From the NCBI GenBank assembly GCA_031262035.1, contig JAISIL010000128.1, positions 1 to 37,825 on the forward strand: a stretch of 37,825 bases of DNA, given 5' to 3'. The notes below the pieces were generated by a model. That model saw only the letters and a program-made list of their open reading frames with translations, had not been told where the DNA came from and did no database searches. Positions 2,956 through 11,410 of the stretch are shown in pieces. The DNA comes from Spirochaetaceae bacterium (GTDB lineage Bacteria; Spirochaetota; Spirochaetia; Treponematales; Breznakiellaceae). The position numbers were made by a program, and so were the translations under genes. The stretch's first letter is position 1. Each line of letters opens with the position of its first letter.

Positions 2956-4821
2956 ATGAGTAGATTAAAGCACTTGCCCATTGTAATGAGTTCTCTTTTG
3001 GTTCTTGTCCTTATTGTGTGTTTTAATTCCTGTAGTCTTCTTGACGGGATAGGAGTAATGCCACAACTAACAGGTTCTGTATCACTAAGCCCCTCGCCTG
3101 CAATTGCTGCAGGCAGTATAGCAAAGATAGATATTTCACACATAGATTATAATATTAAACCAAACTTGTATAGCTGGTATTATTCGGATACAGACACTGG
3201 GGATATTACAGATGGTTCATGGAACTTAATTCCTGAAGCAAAAGAGCAGGCCTATGAAGTGCCCTATAGCTATATCGGAAAATATATTAGCGCTCAAGTA
3301 AGCGATTCTGAATTTAACGGTTCTCTGAGCACCGAGGCGATTGTTGTGCAGGATGGTATTGTCAGGATACTGAGCGGGTATCTGACTATACTCTATAGAG
3401 ATTCAGAGAATTATAGCAATATGCTCGCAGGCGAGAAATTGACGCTTGATACATCGGGGCTGAATGCCGACAGCGACAGTCCTCCGCCTGAATACACTTA
3501 TGAATGGACACAGTCTACAGATGATATCACTTTTGGGGCGACGCCAATAAGCACAACAAATGAATATACCCTTGCCGAAACTGATTATAAAACCTACATA
3601 CAGGTGAAGATAAGCGCAGACGGCTATGCAGGATATGTGTCGGCAAAGCTGTATATATCACCTGTAACTAAGATAAACCTTACCGGGAATGCTATTATTC
3701 TCTATGATGGTTCTCCTACCTATTCAATAATGGAAATCGGTAAGGCCCTTTCTGCTGATACCGGCGATTTAAACAGTGATGATGCTGTGCCTCCTCCTCG
3801 TTATACCTTTGAATGGACCAGGGCTTCGGGGGGTGGCCGTGATTTTGATACTCCCTTAAAGGCAAATGCCGATAATTCCTATACACTGGTTGAAGACGAT
3901 AAAGCCTGCTACATACAACTAAAAGTGACTGCTGCAGGCTATACCGGTGCAATATACGCAGAAACCTTTGTGCTTACCGGTGATATTGCCGGAAACTATA
4001 TTTCAGGCCTGGTGAGTATTGACCAATTGGGTGATACCTTTGCAGCAGACACAAGCGCTGTTCTATACGGCACTGCAGGAGCCAGCTATACCCCCAGCTA
4101 TACCTGGTCGGTAGATAATGCAGGTGACAGAAACTTTACCCAAGTGCAAGGGCCTTTAGACGCAGCCCACAATGGCGATGTATTAAACCTTCAGTCTAAA
4201 TGGAATGGCTGTAATATTCAGGTGATGATAACCGCTTCTCCTCTTAGTGGTGCTGTCTATGCCGATAAATTATACGACCGCAGCAGCGGAGGCGGCACAA
4301 TCAATAGTATGAACCTCAATTGGGTTATGATAAATGAACCTGCCGCAAATGCAATGCCTGTTCCTGCTCTTTCGCAGGTTGATATTATATCCTGGTATAC
4401 GACAAACTATGGCAGGCTTCCTGCTGATTGGTCGCCGACGCCAAATGTTGAACCGGATGCACTCAGTATTGAAGATACGGTTTCAAGCGAACAGTATAAC
4501 ATGAAAATGACTTGGTCTGCTGTTGATCATACCTTCCCCAGTAATTTCAATTTTCTGGTGGATACCGGCAAGGTCTGTTTTGATATTAAAACACGCTATA
4601 AAGCGGTCATTACCATAAAGCCAAAAGCTAAATGGGTCTTACCCGAGATGAAGGCCGATACATTCAGTTATACCGGTGTGGTCAGCACCTATACACAGGT
4701 CTCTGGGCTTTCAGATCTTGATACACTGCCTGATACTACAGGCGGTATTTACACAACACCGGCACAGGCAGGTGCAGCAAGTGCTACCATAACGATTATC
4801 TTCCCCAGAACGGGAGCATAA
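2956..4821 (+). CDS. Surface lipoprotein with tandem Ig-like repeats
   Basis: A 621-aa protein. The N-terminus has a short basic stretch, a hydrophobic segment and a relaxed lipobox ending FNSC, with Cys26 as likely lipidation site. From about residue 130 there are at least two repeats of roughly 100 residues. Each carries the same scheme: a hydrophobic strand, a PPP[ER]YT[YF]EWT core, a Y-T-L-x-E-x-D segment, then YIQ[VL]K and GY[AT]G. A weaker related repeat precedes them and another follows near residue 350. The pattern of paired strands with a central Trp suggests Ig-like beta-sandwiches exposed outside the cell. It is first in a three-gene lipoprotein unit; the next gene starts 29 bp on. 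The specific ligand or role is unknown. Start chosen from promoter spacing and signal peptide. Confidence 0.7.
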   Translation: MSRLKHLPIVMSSLLVLVLIVCFNSCSLLDGIGVMPQLTGSVSLSPSPAIAAGSIAKIDISHIDYNIKPNLYSWYYSDTDTGDITDGSWNLIPEAKEQAYEVPYSYIGKYISAQVSDSEFNGSLSTEAIVVQDGIVRILSGYLTILYRDSENYSNMLAGEKLTLDTSGLNADSDSPPPEYTYEWTQSTDDITFGATPISTTNEYTLAETDYKTYIQVKISADGYAGYVSAKLYISPVTKINLTGNAIILYDGSPTYSIMEIGKALSADTGDLNSDDAVPPPRYTFEWTRASGGGRDFDTPLKANADNSYTLVEDDKACYIQLKVTAAGYTGAIYAETFVLTGDIAGNYISGLVSIDQLGDTFAADTSAVLYGTAGASYTPSYTWSVDNAGDRNFTQVQGPLDAAHNGDVLNLQSKWNGCNIQVMITASPLSGAVYADKLYDRSSGGGTINSMNLNWVMINEPAANAMPVPALSQVDIISWYTTNYGRLPADWSPTPNVEPDALSIEDTVSSEQYNMKMTWSAVDHTFPSNFNFLVDTGKVCFDIKTRYKAVITIKPKAKWVLPEMKADTFSYTGVVSTYTQVSGLSDLDTLPDTTGGIYTTPAQAGAASATITIIFPRTGA

Positions 4822-4850: not shown

Positions 4851-7205
4851 ATGAAGAACAAAATTACTGCTATAGTAGTATTTATAACACTCTCTCTATT
4901 TGTAATAACACTCTGCTGCTGCAATATGCTTAGTGTTTCTGGGACATCGGTAGTGCAGAATACGGTCAGGGAAGGCTGTGCGGGCACTATTGATTTACCC
5001 GATGGTTCGGATGTAGGCACACTTACTATACAGGTGGGCAGTAGTGCAGGGAATGCAAACTCTGTAAATCGCACTATTACAGGGATTCTTGCCGAGAACC
5101 TTCCTGTAGACCTTGTAGAGTCTCCTTTGCGTAACTACTATCAATTAATTACTGTTGATGCAAGTTCAGGGTATGCAATCGCGGACGCCTGCATTGCAAG
5201 CGGCAATACCAGTCCGACACTCTCCGTACCGGTGCGCCGTGGTGTTGATACAAAGGTTCTTTTGCTGGCAGGTTTTCAAAACAGCACGGAAACACCAACC
5301 CTGCTTGGTTCTGCCTATGCCTCATTCCGGCCGCTTAATTCCGGTGATATGGTAGAGTTTGTGATTAGTCCTGTTGTAAGCGGCATTGAGTTTTATGTAG
5401 AGGGAAACCGCGATGCAACACTTGCAGAAACAGGCCGTATAGCAAGAAGAATAATGCTCAGCCCTAATACTAATTATACCATGAAGGTAAATATTGGTTG
5501 GGCAAGTAATGCGGCGGTAGGCGATACCGGTGATGTATTCAGGCCGGTAACAGGCGATGGTTTAAGCCCTTTGCAAGAGGCTTCAGAAGCTTTAGGAATA
5601 GGCTTTAGCAGTAATACTGCTTCCAATGCACATGCCTGGTATGACCTGCAGGGAAGCTTTAACCCCGATGACGGCGGAGGAATTCCTGCAAACAAGGTGG
5701 AGCATCCTGAAAACGGCGACCGGGCATACTATTTTACTATTCCCTCAGGCTCTGTTACTACAGGGCCTACCCTAAAGATGGCGGTCTTTAGGCTCTCCTA
5801 TAATCCTTTTGACTTACCGGAAAGCAGTTGGAAAAAGGACGGAGACCCAAACGGCGTCTGGCGAAGTTTTATGATAAATGGGGTGCTCACTCAATTGCAG
5901 AGTATTCCTACCTGGTTTATCCGCAATGGTTTAAATGATGTTTTGCAAACGGTAATGGCGGTAAATACAACAAGCTATCCGGGCACCGACAGGGCCGACC
6001 AGGCAAATAGCCTTCTTGATTACGGAACGGATTTCCAGGCCTTTGCCGCAATGGATGCAAATAGCCGGGTAGGCACTACTGCAAAAAAGGACGGCATTCC
6101 CGTTAATGCCAATGGGGGTATTGCCATAGCGGTTATGAGCGATACCAGTTCTTTAAGCTATGGCCTTTTCGAAGGAAGCAATAGATATCCTATTATTCAT
6201 GGCGGCGAAGCTTCATCTTCCTCAAATCTTCTTGACCACTGTGTTGAATATCTGAATACAGCACTGCTTAATCGCGATGGGGCAAAATTTGGCACTTATC
6301 GTATTGAGATAGAGGAAAGGGCTGATCGCGCCCAAAGGCCGATTAATCTTGGGAATTCACTTGCCTTCGATAGCCAAAGTATCTATCCGCCTTATTCTCA
6401 TGAGGGTATTGGAGGACTGGTAAAAGAATCCGGTTTAACGATAAATCTTAAGGGGAACGCTCATCCAACCCTCTATCTTTCCGAAGAGGGGCCTCTCTTT
6501 GCCTTACCCTCCTCTCTTGTGACTCTTAATCTGAAAGATATTACCCTGCATGGCCTTTATGCCGGCTCTAATGGGAGTTCCGGGGTAAGTTTTAATGTGC
6601 TTCCCACGCAGAATAGCGCTCAATATCAAGCGGCTAAAATCAACAATGATAATACGGATTTCCCCCTGCTTTATATTGGAGGCATTGTTACTCTTGATAA
6701 TACTGTTGTCGAATGTAACTTTCGTAATGGAAACAATGGAAGCAGTAATGCAGCAGGTATTCAAACAATCCATACCGGTATTGTGAGCCTTAAAGGAAAC
6801 AGCAAGGTATGGAAAAATTATAATTATGCAACTACGGGTAATGGCTGGGGAGGCGGTGTATCCGGTGCGGGTAAATTCATTATGGAAGATTCGAGCAGCG
6901 TCACAGAAAATGTGGTGTATTCATATTATTTTTATGCTTATGGCGGCGGCGTTTGCTGTGTAGGAAGCGGTGTTTTGAAGATGCAGGGGGGAACAATAGC
7001 AGGGAATATCTCATACGACCCTGGTAAGAATCTTGCCTATTCCCAGGACTCAAAAAAGGGTGCCTATTGGCCTTCCGGAACCAAAGGTTTTATAGGCGGC
7101 ATTGAGAGAACACCGGTGCTTCATTCATTGTTCTACCAGATGTCGGGTGCAACAGTGGACAACTTTATTGTTATTGATGATACTATAGAGGCGGTGATAC
7201 TATGA
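4851..7205 (+). CDS. Lipoprotein with C-terminal parallel beta-helix region (paralogue A)
   Basis: A 784-aa protein beginning with a long hydrophobic signal segment that runs into Cys-Cys-Cys at residues 22-24, one of which should be lipidated. The first half is shared with the next gene: both have SPLRNY[YF][EQ]LIT[VL]DA-S-G, a TSPTL-V-VR+GV block and a NREATL-like stretch. The last 250 residues contain short repeated turns with Gly-Gly-Gly and Asn (GNGWGGGVSG, YGGGVCC, MQGGTIAGN), as in right-handed beta-helix surface proteins. AGGA lies 7 nt before the ATG. The stop overlaps the next start as ATGA, so the two are translationally coupled. Probably a surface or secreted adhesin-like protein; exact function unknown. 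Confidence 0.7.
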   Translation: MKNKITAIVVFITLSLFVITLCCCNMLSVSGTSVVQNTVREGCAGTIDLPDGSDVGTLTIQVGSSAGNANSVNRTITGILAENLPVDLVESPLRNYYQLITVDASSGYAIADACIASGNTSPTLSVPVRRGVDTKVLLLAGFQNSTETPTLLGSAYASFRPLNSGDMVEFVISPVVSGIEFYVEGNRDATLAETGRIARRIMLSPNTNYTMKVNIGWASNAAVGDTGDVFRPVTGDGLSPLQEASEALGIGFSSNTASNAHAWYDLQGSFNPDDGGGIPANKVEHPENGDRAYYFTIPSGSVTTGPTLKMAVFRLSYNPFDLPESSWKKDGDPNGVWRSFMINGVLTQLQSIPTWFIRNGLNDVLQTVMAVNTTSYPGTDRADQANSLLDYGTDFQAFAAMDANSRVGTTAKKDGIPVNANGGIAIAVMSDTSSLSYGLFEGSNRYPIIHGGEASSSSNLLDHCVEYLNTALLNRDGAKFGTYRIEIEERADRAQRPINLGNSLAFDSQSIYPPYSHEGIGGLVKESGLTINLKGNAHPTLYLSEEGPLFALPSSLVTLNLKDITLHGLYAGSNGSSGVSFNVLPTQNSAQYQAAKINNDNTDFPLLYIGGIVTLDNTVVECNFRNGNNGSSNAAGIQTIHTGIVSLKGNSKVWKNYNYATTGNGWGGGVSGAGKFIMEDSSSVTENVVYSYYFYAYGGGVCCVGSGVLKMQGGTIAGNISYDPGKNLAYSQDSKKGAYWPSGTKGFIGGIERTPVLHSLFYQMSGATVDNFIVIDDTIEAVIL

Positions 7206-9826
7206 TAGGTAAATTTTATACACAATTCATACATCTCTGCATTTTATTTATTCTGCTCTTGAGCTTTTCTGCCTGCAGGAATGTAATTATCGATGATGGA
7301 GGCGATGGTTCAGATAGTATAAAAAATGGTGCAGTTTCCGATGGCCCTGCAGCATATAAAGGCAGTATTCAATTGTCCGAGGGCGCTACAGAGGGAACAC
7401 TGAGCATTATTATTGAGGATAAGACAGAGAGGCGTTCGGTTTCGGGCTTTAGCGGCACGAGCAGTGATTTAAATACCCCAAGTCCCTTACGCAATTACTT
7501 TGAATTAATTACCCTTGATGCAAATTCAGGGACAAAGATAATGGATTTTTGCCGGGTTCAACAAACGACAAGTCCGACATTAAAGGTCCGCGTGCGTAAA
7601 GGGGTGCGCACCCATGCGCTCTTACTGGTAGGGAATCAGTATGGTTCAAATTATCCTACCCTGCTTGGTTCTTCTTTTGTTACCTTCTACCCCGATGCTT
7701 CCAATGATATGGTTACTTTTACTATCACCCCGCTTGTTATTGGTGTAGAATCTTACGAGGCAAATAACCGGGAAGCAACACTACAGCAGCCGGGGCGCTT
7801 AAGCCCGGGAATAACTATACCGGAAAGCTATGTAACACAGGTAAATATTGGAAACCGGGCAACAGCACTTTCGGCAGGGGATTCCCGGCAGATTGTTTCA
7901 GGCGATGGCCTTGCCCCCTTGGTAGATGCGGCACGGGCTGTAGGCTCTTCGACAAATCTTAATACGGCAGACCCAGGTAATACTGTTTGGAATGAGGGCT
8001 ATCCCCGATACGGCTATGCAATGGCCTATTTATCTGTTCCCGACCCGACTCCTGTCGAAGCGGATATTTTTGCAGATTATTATTCTAATCCGGATTGGAA
8101 TGACACAGGTGATTGCAATCCTGATACTGTTCCCTTTGCCAATCTTGTTGAACAGGGAATTGGTATTAACCGCAATTATCAGTTTACTCTGTATAATAAC
8201 CCGGGGGATATTTCATGGGATGATAAAACCCTGTGGGATAAGATTGCTACCTGGACCTACCGCTTTGTGTTTCGCATTGATTATCGGCCTTTTGAACTGG
8301 ATGAAACAGCCTGGCAGGATGCAAATGGTGATTTTCGAAAGTTTATAATAGACAGCACTAATACTCCCAAAGCTCTTGACGAAGTGCCTCATTGGATTAT
8401 CCGTCCTGGTTTAAATGACGATGTAAAAACCCCTCTGGTGGTTGACGGTATTAGTGCTACCGGCTATGCGGTAGGTGATTATGGCACAGACTATGCAAAA
8501 TTTAACGATGCCGATACGGGAAGCATCAGTGGTGCAAAGGCCTCTTACAAGGGGCTTCCGGTGAATGCAAACGGTGGAATTCCTGTTCCAATCAACTCCG
8601 GTGCGAGGACTCATATGAGTAATTCGCCTCATACCATAGGTATTTATGAGGAGGATAATCTGTATCCGGCTTATAGCGCAGGTAATACAGATGCACTCTA
8701 TGAATGTTTAAAATATTTGGAAGTAGGCCTTAGCCAAAATCCCAGTGCGCGAAAGAGTTCTTATTATGTAGGGGTAACGACTTATGAGAACCCTCAAGGA
8801 ACCACCGCCACCAATAATCCAATAAACTGTGCAGGAGTAGACTTTGATACCGACCGGACCGGTTTTCCTAATCTGCTTGGAAGCAATAAAGCGGATTATT
8901 TGCAGGGAACCGGGGGGAAAATTATTGTCCGGGGTATGAGTGTCGCCAACTGGGGAGCGGCAGTAAATCTGAGCTCAGAAGGTTATCTGCTTTCTCTTCC
9001 CGATGGGGCCGGTATCGATGTTGTTTTGGAAGGTGATTTAACCATAAACGGAAAGAACGACAATACCTCCCCCTTAATTTATGTCGGAGAGGGCAATACA
9101 CTGACCATTGGGGAATATGCAGATTGGTCGGGCCTTATTACTAATGATGAAGGGGTAATTATCCGGGGAAACACTTACCAGGGAAACGGCGCCGGTATAC
9201 TTGTAGCCGGTAGCAATGCAATTTTTACCATGGACGGAGGGGCCATTCAGGACTGCCATTCAACAAATGGGAAGGGCGGGGCGGTATTTGTGAGTAATGG
9301 GGCTTCTTTTGTATTCAACAATGGTATTATCGGGGGAACTTATGCTGTTACCGCCAATAATGCAACCACCACTACCTACAATGGCAGCAATTCCGCAGTA
9401 AACGGCGGCGCTGTAGCCATTGATGCACAGAGCAGCCTTGCTATGAACAATGGAATTATCTCTTATAATACGGCATCGGCAAATGGGGGCGCTGTGTATC
9501 TTGCTGCATCAGCGAAGTTTAAGCTGAATGGCGGCGAGATATATAACAATACGGCGAGCGCCGGTGCAGGCGGTGGTGTCTACCTTGATACAGGGGCAGA
9601 TTTTAGTATTACAGGCGGCATCATCTATGGAAAAGCAGGAACAACATTCGGAACGAGCGCTACCTACACGGTGGAGGCTGCCCCGGTAGTTACCTGGCCG
9701 CAGGGGAAAATTGAGCAAAAACGCTATGGCAATGCTGCTTCTACGGCCAACACTGCCGCCATCTCCGGCTGGACAAATGCCACCTACACCAACGGCGACC
9801 AAAGCCTGTATGCCGGCAGCCTCTGA
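7202..9826 (+). CDS. Lipoprotein with Pmp-like GGA[IV]/NNG repeats (paralogue B)
   Basis: An 874-aa protein with a lipobox ending FSAC (Cys25). It is a paralogue of the preceding gene over the N-terminal half but has an extra Asp- and Asn-rich insert around residues 275-340. From about residue 660 to 830 there are repeated turns containing GGAI, GGAV and GGGV alternating with FNNG, MNNG and LNGG. This resembles the GGAI/FxxN repeats of chlamydial polymorphic membrane proteins and other beta-helix adhesins, though no autotransporter barrel follows: the protein stops soon after the repeats. The start overlaps the previous stop by 4 bases. The likely role is at the cell surface, with lipid anchoring at the N-terminus. 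Substrate or receptor unknown. Confidence 0.72.
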   Translation: MIGKFYTQFIHLCILFILLLSFSACRNVIIDDGGDGSDSIKNGAVSDGPAAYKGSIQLSEGATEGTLSIIIEDKTERRSVSGFSGTSSDLNTPSPLRNYFELITLDANSGTKIMDFCRVQQTTSPTLKVRVRKGVRTHALLLVGNQYGSNYPTLLGSSFVTFYPDASNDMVTFTITPLVIGVESYEANNREATLQQPGRLSPGITIPESYVTQVNIGNRATALSAGDSRQIVSGDGLAPLVDAARAVGSSTNLNTADPGNTVWNEGYPRYGYAMAYLSVPDPTPVEADIFADYYSNPDWNDTGDCNPDTVPFANLVEQGIGINRNYQFTLYNNPGDISWDDKTLWDKIATWTYRFVFRIDYRPFELDETAWQDANGDFRKFIIDSTNTPKALDEVPHWIIRPGLNDDVKTPLVVDGISATGYAVGDYGTDYAKFNDADTGSISGAKASYKGLPVNANGGIPVPINSGARTHMSNSPHTIGIYEEDNLYPAYSAGNTDALYECLKYLEVGLSQNPSARKSSYYVGVTTYENPQGTTATNNPINCAGVDFDTDRTGFPNLLGSNKADYLQGTGGKIIVRGMSVANWGAAVNLSSEGYLLSLPDGAGIDVVLEGDLTINGKNDNTSPLIYVGEGNTLTIGEYADWSGLITNDEGVIIRGNTYQGNGAGILVAGSNAIFTMDGGAIQDCHSTNGKGGAVFVSNGASFVFNNGIIGGTYAVTANNATTTTYNGSNSAVNGGAVAIDAQSSLAMNNGIISYNTASANGGAVYLAASAKFKLNGGEIYNNTASAGAGGGVYLDTGADFSITGGIIYGKAGTTFGTSATYTVEAAPVVTWPQGKIEQKRYGNAASTANTAAISGWTNATYTNGDQSLYAGSL

Positions 9827-9848: not shown

Positions 9849-9877
9849 TTGAAAAAAAGATTTAAATATGTTATAAT
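9849..9877 (+). promoter_or_regulatory. Promoter, predicted leaderless (gene at 9884)
   Basis: TTGAAA (9849-9854), 17 bp, perfect TATAAT (9872-9877), then 6 bp to the ATG at 9884. No Shine-Dalgarno is present. Confidence 0.75.
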
Positions 9878-9883
9878 AGAAAT

Positions 9884-11410
9884 ATGGCAGAAGATATTTT
9901 TGGAAAAGTTATTGATTTTATTTCAGGAACGGAAGGCGAGGCAGGTGACCGGCGTCTTTTATTACAAAAATTGCAGCGGGATATAGCCCAAAACAAGTAT
10001 GGAAAGTTCTACCGGGTCAGGCAGGAAGAGCTTGATGTTCCCTTTGCAGAAACCATCTATTCCCTGTATCGTATTATTCGGCCGATACAGGCAATTACCG
10101 GCAACCCCCGGCTCCTGGAAAGGCTGAAGCTTCTTTCGGTGGAGACCTTTCTTGACCGGCCGATGGTGGAGGCCATTGAAAGGCTTAACCCCGATTCAAT
10201 TGAAAAAAGCGCTACCGACCGGAGTCATCCGGAGGTGGCAATGGAGCTAAAAGAAGATGTGAGCAAGCTGGAAGCACAGTTTACCACTTCTTTTACCGCA
10301 ACGGTAGACCATCTTTTTATAATGAATCAGGCTCTTTTAAACCTTGCATCCTTTAATTATACGGCCTTTTTAAGCAAGTTTGACGAAAAGTTTCTTCCCC
10401 AGCCGGATTACCGGCCTGCTTTCCGTCCGATAAAGGCAGTGCCTCTTGTGAGTGATATTGCCCATTTTGGCCATGCAATAACCCAATTGAACCTTTCTGG
10501 TGACTGGAAACTGGTATTAAATAATGCCAATGCCCTTGTTCAGATGCAAATTCCCCTGGATGATGCGGTAAAAATGCTGAATGACCTGCAGGATATTCGT
10601 TCGTCGGGCATTATCGACCTGATAATTCAGTATACCTTAAAGAACCCTTCCTGGGTGAATGTGCTGAAGTCAGGCCCGCAGGGTCAATTGGCATCCGATT
10701 GGCTCATTGCCAAAAAAGATGCATCATTGCGGCTTATCGACCGTATTATTTCTGTGCAAAGGGATGAAAGAATGGCAGCCCTTGCCGACTCGGTCTTTGG
10801 CACCTACGATATTAACCGCTTACAGAATTATACTACCCGTGCCTCAGACGACCTTGCATCCAAGGGATTAAATACCTTTAAGTATGCAGCGGTTTTTAAT
10901 TATCTTTTTGCTTTTATCGAAGACTTTGCAAAGCGGGAATTGCAGGAACTCTATGACATTGTGCTTGTTCGCGGGCAGTGGACCAATCAGAACCAATCAA
11001 AAGAAATGTCCGAGGCCTTTTATGAACTGATTAAACTTACCGAGGGCGTCCGGGCCCTGGATGATTCTCTTTCCGAAGACGGTAAAGAAGGCCAGCGTTT
11101 AAATGCAGCCCTTTCCCGTGTGGAACATGATAATAGCCAGGTCTACTATGTGAACAATATGGTAGGGAGCATTAACGATGACGCACAGGAAATAGTAGAA
11201 TCGGCAAGCCGTTCTATGGAAATCCTTACCCGCCGCTTAAAGGAACTGGTGGAAGACAGTCAGAAAAAACCCGGCGATATTATTATCAACTGGCGGCAAC
11301 TGAATATGGTTTCCCGCACGCCGATAGCGCAAAGGCTGGTAGAAGATTACGAAAAGGTCTCAACCTTTTATCAGTTACTGCAACTCTATGTAGAAAGCGC
11401 CGACGAATAG
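9884..11410 (+). CDS. Spirochaete protein of unknown function (helical, cytoplasmic)
   Basis: A 508-aa protein without signal peptide or membrane helices, rich in charged helical segments. It opens with MAEDIFGKVIDFISG and ends with a coiled-coil-prone region (residues about 400-500). From memory the N-terminus resembles a treponemal family sometimes labelled DUF5312, but I cannot confirm this and assign no function. It is read from a strong promoter whose -10 box lies 6 bp before the ATG. It runs convergent to mazG; the two stop codons are only 6 bp apart, so the transcripts probably overlap. Coding is convincing from length, start context and clean codon structure. Confidence 0.75.
   Translation: MAEDIFGKVIDFISGTEGEAGDRRLLLQKLQRDIAQNKYGKFYRVRQEELDVPFAETIYSLYRIIRPIQAITGNPRLLERLKLLSVETFLDRPMVEAIERLNPDSIEKSATDRSHPEVAMELKEDVSKLEAQFTTSFTATVDHLFIMNQALLNLASFNYTAFLSKFDEKFLPQPDYRPAFRPIKAVPLVSDIAHFGHAITQLNLSGDWKLVLNNANALVQMQIPLDDAVKMLNDLQDIRSSGIIDLIIQYTLKNPSWVNVLKSGPQGQLASDWLIAKKDASLRLIDRIISVQRDERMAALADSVFGTYDINRLQNYTTRASDDLASKGLNTFKYAAVFNYLFAFIEDFAKRELQELYDIVLVRGQWTNQNQSKEMSEAFYELIKLTEGVRALDDSLSEDGKEGQRLNAALSRVEHDNSQVYYVNNMVGSINDDAQEIVESASRSMEILTRRLKELVEDSQKKPGDIIINWRQLNMVSRTPIAQRLVEDYEKVSTFYQLLQLYVESADE

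Follow-up and report, generated by a model that had tools for sequence, protein, structure and literature searches.

A putative family of modular lipoproteins with interchangeable C-terminal heads, including a tandem pair, in spirochaetes

Chlamydial Pmp proteins are described in two papers as having a beta-helix with GGA[ILV] and FxxN motifs on its coils (PMC11166332; PMC10715098), and a third treats them as a multi-copy family, some members of which mediate adhesion (PMC2997323). For Treponema pallidum, work on tprL reports that the length of the poly-G tract in the promoter affects promoter activity (PMC7864442). T. denticola TvpA and other lipoproteins diversified by diversity-generating retroelements (DGR) have, according to a further excerpt, an FGE-sulfatase end with the C-type lectin fold (PMC4891356). 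Here we analyse a window of 37,825 nucleotides, the entire contig C75 of a Spirochaetaceae bacterium (genome G000, 3.07 Mb in 215 contigs), which carries two adjacent lipoprotein genes, A and B. We consider, with a probability of roughly 0.58, that A and B are a tandem-duplicated pair within an undescribed, modular, partly phase-variable and probably surface-located adhesin family of termite-gut spirochaetes; surface exposure, binding function, switching and the fold of B are the parts that we infer.

Members of this family share an N-terminal domain of about 400 amino acids (the N-domain), followed by a C-terminal region, the head. As in Pmp (PF02415, TIGR01376), a beta-helix is probable and Pmp-like repeats occur in a multi-copy family; unlike Pmp, these proteins have a lipid anchor instead of an autotransporter barrel, an N-domain of their own and many kinds of head, and their repeats score under the family cut-offs. 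What recalls Tpr and TP0126, the poly-G phase-variable outer membrane proteins of T. pallidum, is that paralogous envelope genes carry long poly-G (C) runs close to their 5' ends. The present genes, however, encode lipoproteins with modular heads, their tracts of 14-22 bases lie 115-121 bases upstream, beside the start or inside the N-domain, and the window genes are tract-free. Like the T. denticola DGR proteins, the family comprises spirochaete lipoproteins in which an FGE-sulfatase end occurs (in L139 and L144), but that end is one head type of many and is absent from A and B, and no second copy of a candidate variable region was found in two incomplete genomes. With the pectin-lyase-fold lyases (5olq, PelI, Pel3) it shares a parallel beta-helix, as modeled in the relative L197, although the family has no sequence-family match and is lipid-anchored behind the N-domain.

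Gene A (4851..7205, 784 amino acids) and gene B (7202..9826, 874 amino acids) lie on the forward strand and share an ATGA at 7202-7205, in which the stop codon of A overlaps the start codon of B. Both were recognized by their open reading frames, by paralogy and by the N-domain profile A3, and BLASTP aligns them at 31% identity across 821 alignment columns (E 3e-70), in agreement with the coupled paralogous genes reported in the first-pass annotation. The N-domain spans 4914..6137 in A (E 2.4e-100) and 7265..8593 in B (E 7e-110), each protein being itself among the profile rows. A tree built from 38 N-domains pairs A with B (support 100/100), and this sister placement, together with the paralogy, makes a tandem duplication likely. 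Smith-Waterman scores between A and B were 567 versus 42 +/- 6 in shuffles for the N-domain, 60 versus 29 +/- 5 for the middle and 104 versus 53 +/- 9 for the C-terminus, and none of 300 shuffles reached the observed value in any segment. The last of these scores suggests that the two C-termini are probably related and far more diverged; the C-terminal pieces aligned alone with SEG masking on gave nothing significant (best E 0.068).

At the start of each protein, a lipobox regular expression picks out a hydrophobic signal closed by a lipobox-like cysteine. The signal of B (7202..7276) is MIGKFYTQFIHLCILFILLLSFSAC, and that of A (4851..4922) ends in three cysteines, of which the lipidated one is unsure. 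Among family members with a 5' end, 25 of 37 pass a strict lipobox pattern versus 8 of 132 other open frames of at least 250 codons in the same loci, a contrast that is rough because some of these control frames are not genes. The C-terminal repeat region of B (9002..9823; residues 601-874) contains four GGA[ILVM] motifs and five copies of [FLIV]x[LMIF][NDTQ][GN]Gx[IV], numbers matched by 0 of 2000 shuffles in either case, besides three FxxN (54/2000) and five N[NDG]G (28/2000). The corresponding region of A (6486..7202; residues 546-784) has one copy of the long pattern (21/2000) and neither GGA[ILVM] nor FxxN. From these scores the C-terminus of A is probably a degenerate form of the B repeat region and not another kind. 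Of the earlier statement that the pair shares an N-terminal half and differs in its C-termini, the first part therefore stands, and the second holds for degree of divergence and not clearly for kind.

The fold of the head was approached through L197, a relative composed of the N-domain, a linker and Pmp-like repeats. Its AlphaFold model, based on an alignment of 21 rows, all from the window or named loci (one row, L210, begins with a few residues of another frame, its gene being split), has a mean predicted local distance difference test score (pLDDT) of 81.5 and a predicted template modelling score of 0.55. Residues 470-811 superpose on rhamnogalacturonan lyase 5olq with Z 20.0, 3.8 Å, 277 aligned residues and 16% identity (VIA-align 2), and the next folds, obtained with the same program on Foldseek candidates, are a GH87 glucanase (Z 13.5) and pectate lyase PelI (Z 12.2). 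In this model the L197 repeats form a pectin-lyase-type parallel beta-helix; the match reaches the last residue, 811, where model confidence drops, and the model shows no barrel at the C-terminus. The linker (residues 346-456) resembles an FN3 domain (Z 8.7, 3.2 Å, 93 aligned), and in an alignment read by eye its place is taken in A and B by another, shorter stretch. Foldseek's own matches were weak and mainly FN3 chains, and the N-domain gave Ig/FN3-like resemblances only, at poor root-mean-square deviation. AlphaFold with a two-row alignment returned an unusable model of A (pLDDT 30.4). By the repeats that it shares with L197, the head of B would likewise be a parallel beta-helix; the beta-helix first proposed for B is thus favored by homology to a confidently modeled relative.

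Evidence for modularity comes from the regions behind the N-domain. When 30 family proteins or pieces were scanned against Pfam, 15 had a family above cut-off, the best stretch always lying past the N-domain (Gly_rich_2, ALK_LTK_GRD, Sortilin/BNR, FGE-sulfatase, Big_2, TSP3_bac, LRR_5, Flg_new and DUF6273), while the other 15 comprised ten with beta-helix-like repeats, classified by eye, three with sub-threshold BNR/sortilin or Big_2 and two with nothing named. A and B are of the beta-helix head type. Unrelated heads (beta-helix, BNR/sortilin, FGE-sulfatase, TSP3, BspA LRR, Listeria-Bacteroides and glycine-rich) are carried on related N-domains that are 50-71% identical. C-termini were then aligned pairwise with the 110-130 residues behind the N-domain omitted. 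In genome G163, the proteins on contigs C67, C98 and C6 have N-domains 60-71% identical and best C-terminal E-values of 0.73, 2.2 and 5.3, and those on C160 and C155 have N-domains 75% identical and a C-terminal E of 0.24, with 75 residues of C160 left to compare. In G077, the BNR-bearing protein on C295 was set against three helix-bearing ones: C321 (N-domain 59%, C-terminal E 0.056), C46 (56%, 0.008) and C308 (49%, 1.9). Pairs with the same head, used as positive controls, gave 1.7e-60 (C321/C46) and 5e-39 (C192/C223). One further candidate swap, between C120 and C132 of G090, was dropped, the alignment continuing beyond the N-domain. C-terminal diversification on a shared N-terminus, suggested at first for A and B as antigenic, accordingly recurs throughout the family; what it might serve is considered below.

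Some heads deserve separate mention. One N-domain protein (L127:4423-8529) has a strong match, at 250 bits, to the ALK/LTK glycine-rich domain, which is named from animal receptors, and two others (L139:1439-3592 and L144:2364-5036) have C-terminal FGE-sulfatase domains. A DGR-type head was considered for the first of these and gained no support: the terminal 201 bases of L204, the candidate variable region, have no second copy in the incomplete genomes G078 and G090, in a search that did not include reverse transcriptase.

Among 195 genomes of the same taxonomic family, profile A3 detects the N-domain in 20, which belong to 13 of 56 genera and often have several copies. Five of these (G000, G077, G090, G162, G163) gave rows to A3 and so match by construction; eight others match at E 2e-66 to 4e-18 (G078, G079, G091, G092, G094, G142, G019, G089) and seven at E 5e-10 to 1e-4 only (G069, G023, G033, G155, G158, G160, G025). 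In a phylum-wide sample of 198 genomes, G000 was the sole match. The N-domain is limited to one taxonomic family within the genomes searched, and in this taxon it is rarer than the C-terminal repeat, which is present in 28 of 58 genomes searched with B (G000 included). A very wide family, which a whole-length search with B had seemed to yield, was rejected, since the matches outside the window covered B after residue 530, chiefly the repeat. An earlier profile, A2, found 39 of 195 genomes, mostly through the last 90 profile positions, and was replaced by A3; A2 had found no relative among named genomes, where profile A4 found 20 loci, all in metagenome-assembled bins labelled 'Treponema sp.' or 'Spirochaetaceae bacterium'.

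The first-pass annotation had proposed a search of the genome for further copies of the SPLRNY domain, and further copies of the N-domain exist. G000 holds at least eight or nine, two on C75, three in a row on C91 and others on C88, C61, C139 and C68, the count being ambiguous because the copies on C139 (N-part) and C68 (C-part) are each cut off by a contig end and could be pieces of a single gene; such copy numbers are lower bounds, ten candidates per genome having been scored (10 of 19 in G000). Altogether the N-domain marks 54 open frames, some of which are halves of one gene. In one case (L136 / L210, on G077:C158) an N-domain gene is split in two frames with no homopolymer nearby, through sequencing error or decay. 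Among the 16 N-domain rows of the A3 alignment no Pfam family recurs, three families hitting single rows at E up to 0.1, and a sequence search of solved structures gave nothing convincing (best E 0.38 for the N-domain profile and 0.26 for the helix of a relative). As to habitat, the sample codes Gsp477 and Roe453 stand, in a passage of one study, for the termites Glyptotermes and Roisinitermes ebogoensis (PMC11707648), and the genomes with other sample codes, like G000 itself, are presumably also from termite guts, and the taxonomic family is probably Breznakiellaceae. Passages of two papers assign Breznakiellaceae a large share of termite gut communities and place them on wood particles (PMC10281810; PMC11481507).

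Possible phase variation is indicated by homopolymers. The window has no G/C run of seven or more, so A and B are without a tract, but eight family genes in three genomes (G000, G090 and G142) have poly-G/C runs of 14-22 bases. In G000, a run of 14 G (C88, L072:2923-2936) and one of 19 G (C139, L130, near the contig start) occupy the same N-domain position, and the C88 gene is out of frame at its run and split into two frames. In G090, four of six genes have runs of 19, 21, 21 and 19 C that end 115-121 bases ahead of the start codon, and in G142 runs of 19 C and 22 C adjoin the start of both genes, one start (contig C120) being uncertain. The G163 gene on C6 has runs of ten and nine G 144-159 bases upstream, and all other members have nine or fewer. 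The chance of as many tracts was calculated as 3e-5 in G090, 0.005 in G142 and 0.04 in G000, with each overlapping 12-base match counted separately, which overstates the density, and with windows picked after the tracts were seen. Across G000 there are 39 matches to a non-G base followed by ten G, several at contig ends; 30 of the 39 were looked at, and the genome-wide number means that the tracts are not special to the N-domain family. On contig C81 of the same genome, another putative lipoprotein frame (LLISVFLLAGSMLIFTAC) has a 16-base G/C run (L177, G000:C81:6826) at its start, and at about 40091-40110 (L178) 15 C run straight into 15 G, which makes a perfect homopolymer palindrome immediately past an open frame.

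The surroundings of A and B are not conserved in the relatives looked at. A FeoA-FeoB gene (385-2865), in which a FeoA domain is fused to the FeoB N-terminus in a single reading frame, precedes the lipoprotein genes. Next, a lipoprotein-like gene with Ig/A9-like repeats (2956..4821, forward strand; IG_AIR9 sub-cutoff at E 0.0019 and a SinI partner also sub-cutoff) ends 29 bases before A and represents a second multi-copy family, with 26 matching stretches in G000, itself counted. On C91, too, three N-domain genes are preceded by a gene that resembles this one (E 6.5e-7), and parts of it are found in open frames also bearing Pmp-like repeats on C5, C134, C205 and C194 of G000; both observations suggest that the two lipoprotein families trade modules as well. 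Behind B, a promoter-like site TTGAAA-17-TATAAT (9849..9877, forward strand, 11/12) suggests that the following DUF5312 gene (9884-11410) can be transcribed separately; with 13 such sites found versus 14.7 expected, this one stands out by quality alone. DUF5312 is present in 50 of 58 genomes (G000 included, E up to 0.001). When the best DUF5312 match was taken in 29 of the 49 other carriers, with flanks of up to 1.5 kb and less where contigs end sooner (389 bases in L231), A, B, the upstream lipoprotein and FeoB were beside it in none of the 29 and MazG was in five. Carriage by phage or plasmid was also considered and dropped: the B N-domain had no match in phage records, B had none in plasmid records, and viral contigs gave nothing in a scan made with a relative's N-domain rather than with A or B.

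In the adhesin reading, lipidation of the lipobox cysteine after export would tether the proteins to the outer membrane, where the N-domain would act as a stalk or platform presenting an interchangeable head. In A and B the head would be a parallel beta-helix, degenerate in A, and in relatives BNR/sortilin, FGE-sulfatase (C-lectin-like), LRR, TSP3 or other repeats. The heads may attach to gut targets, for example wood-fibre polysaccharide, the surfaces of protists or other bacteria. Binding would become more diverse through the number of paralogues and the exchange of heads, and some relatives may turn individual members on and off by means of poly-G/C tracts that lie upstream of the gene or within the N-domain. 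Termites have no adaptive immune system, which makes diversification for ligands or niches more natural than the antigenic diversification first proposed. Several observations weigh against the adhesin reading. Many lipoproteins remain periplasmic, and 12 of 37 members fail the strict lipobox pattern. The nearest solved folds of the head, as modeled, are enzymes, and the head of A is degenerate or lost. A and B have no homopolymer tract, and their surroundings are not common to the 29 relatives examined, so that any variation of the window pair itself is hypothetical. Genes outside the family, too, have long G/C runs nearby. Because the genomes are fragmented and many members sit at contig ends, the joins between N-domain and head are not beyond doubt.

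The lyase-like folds raise an enzymatic explanation, in which the C-terminal beta-helix is a lyase or hydrolase of pectin or hemicellulose anchored at the surface or in the periplasm, with the N-domain as anchor or carbohydrate-binding part. The three best folds for the L197 helix (rhamnogalacturonan lyase, GH87 glucanase and PelI) and the presumed wood-digesting gut habitat speak for it, but neither A nor B has a Pfam family at E up to 1, eight helix-bearing relatives (L131, L132, L133, L149, L152, L155, L156, L161) have none at E up to 0.01, B matches no solved structure by sequence at E up to 1, and the identity of L197 to the lyase is that of the 16% given above. Moreover, the same N-domain also carries TSP3, LRR and Listeria-Bacteroides heads, none of which is known to be an enzyme, and we regard this explanation as unlikely. 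A known enzyme family, which the first-pass annotation had named as evidence to the contrary, was thus not found by sequence, though the nearest solved folds are polysaccharide lyases. Somewhat less probable again is a periplasmic location, in which the lipoproteins would serve a structural or stress role without ever being displayed outside and their C-terminal variety would be neutral drift among repeats. Lipoprotein signals cannot tell the inner from the outer leaflet, and the C-terminus of A is degenerate, as drift would have it; however, unrelated heads on close N-domains look like replacement rather than drift, and eight family genes carry poly-G/C tracts, as would suit contingency loci of surface structures.

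Descent from chlamydial Pmp autotransporters, with loss of the barrel and re-anchoring by lipidation, appears very improbable. The excess of GGA[IV] repeats over shuffles is in its favor, as are 18 PF02415 (Chlam_PMP) stretches in G000 at E up to 1, but all of these are sub-threshold (the best at 20.3 bits, the cut-off being 20.6), and the best single repeat of B (9455..9499, forward strand) reaches 15.0 bits. PF02415 exceeds its curated cut-off in none of the four genomes searched, while among 14 control genomes the model also responds in two, those of Escherichia coli and Thermotoga maritima. TIGR01376 gives E 0.75 in L197 and is not listed for B, TIGR03804 matches residues 647-672 of B below its cut-off, and no Pmp-type family of Pfam or NCBIfam is found for B at E up to 1; the N-domain, too, has no Pfam match. 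Because of these sub-cutoff scores the repeats are called Pmp-like and not Pmp, so that of the first description of Pmp-like GGA[IV]/NNG repeats in B the GGA excess is upheld and membership by curated cut-off is not. No autotransporter beta-barrel was detected, A and B being without a Pfam family and about 70 residues following the last B repeat, and with the lipobox signals this bears out the earlier view that a lipid anchor takes the place of the barrel.

What is new in the putative adhesin family is the N-domain and the combination, as beta-helix heads, poly-G switches and modular adhesins are already known singly. Among the papers listed in searches of the open literature, with subscription papers mostly outside its coverage, no title or abstract beginning describes the N-domain family, and the titles, abstracts and passages retrieved name no lipoprotein adhesin family for Breznakiellaceae. 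A passage on an ectosymbiotic spirochaete of a termite flagellate suggests LRR, FnIII and ankyrin proteins for adhesion (PMC12483993). The N-domain offers a handle for finding such proteins in Breznakiellaceae, and the tracts make switching testable in existing metagenome reads. More tentatively, the N-domain may define a display platform of spirochaetes, on which heads are exchanged by recombination and whose members are switched by poly-G/C tracts. Gut symbionts that are not pathogens would then have an adhesin system built of contingency loci, of which the window operon would be an unswitched member; this is possible but at present doubtful. If it is true, mechanisms akin to antigenic variation can also be put to use in symbiosis or in attachment to a niche, where no adaptive immunity has to be evaded.

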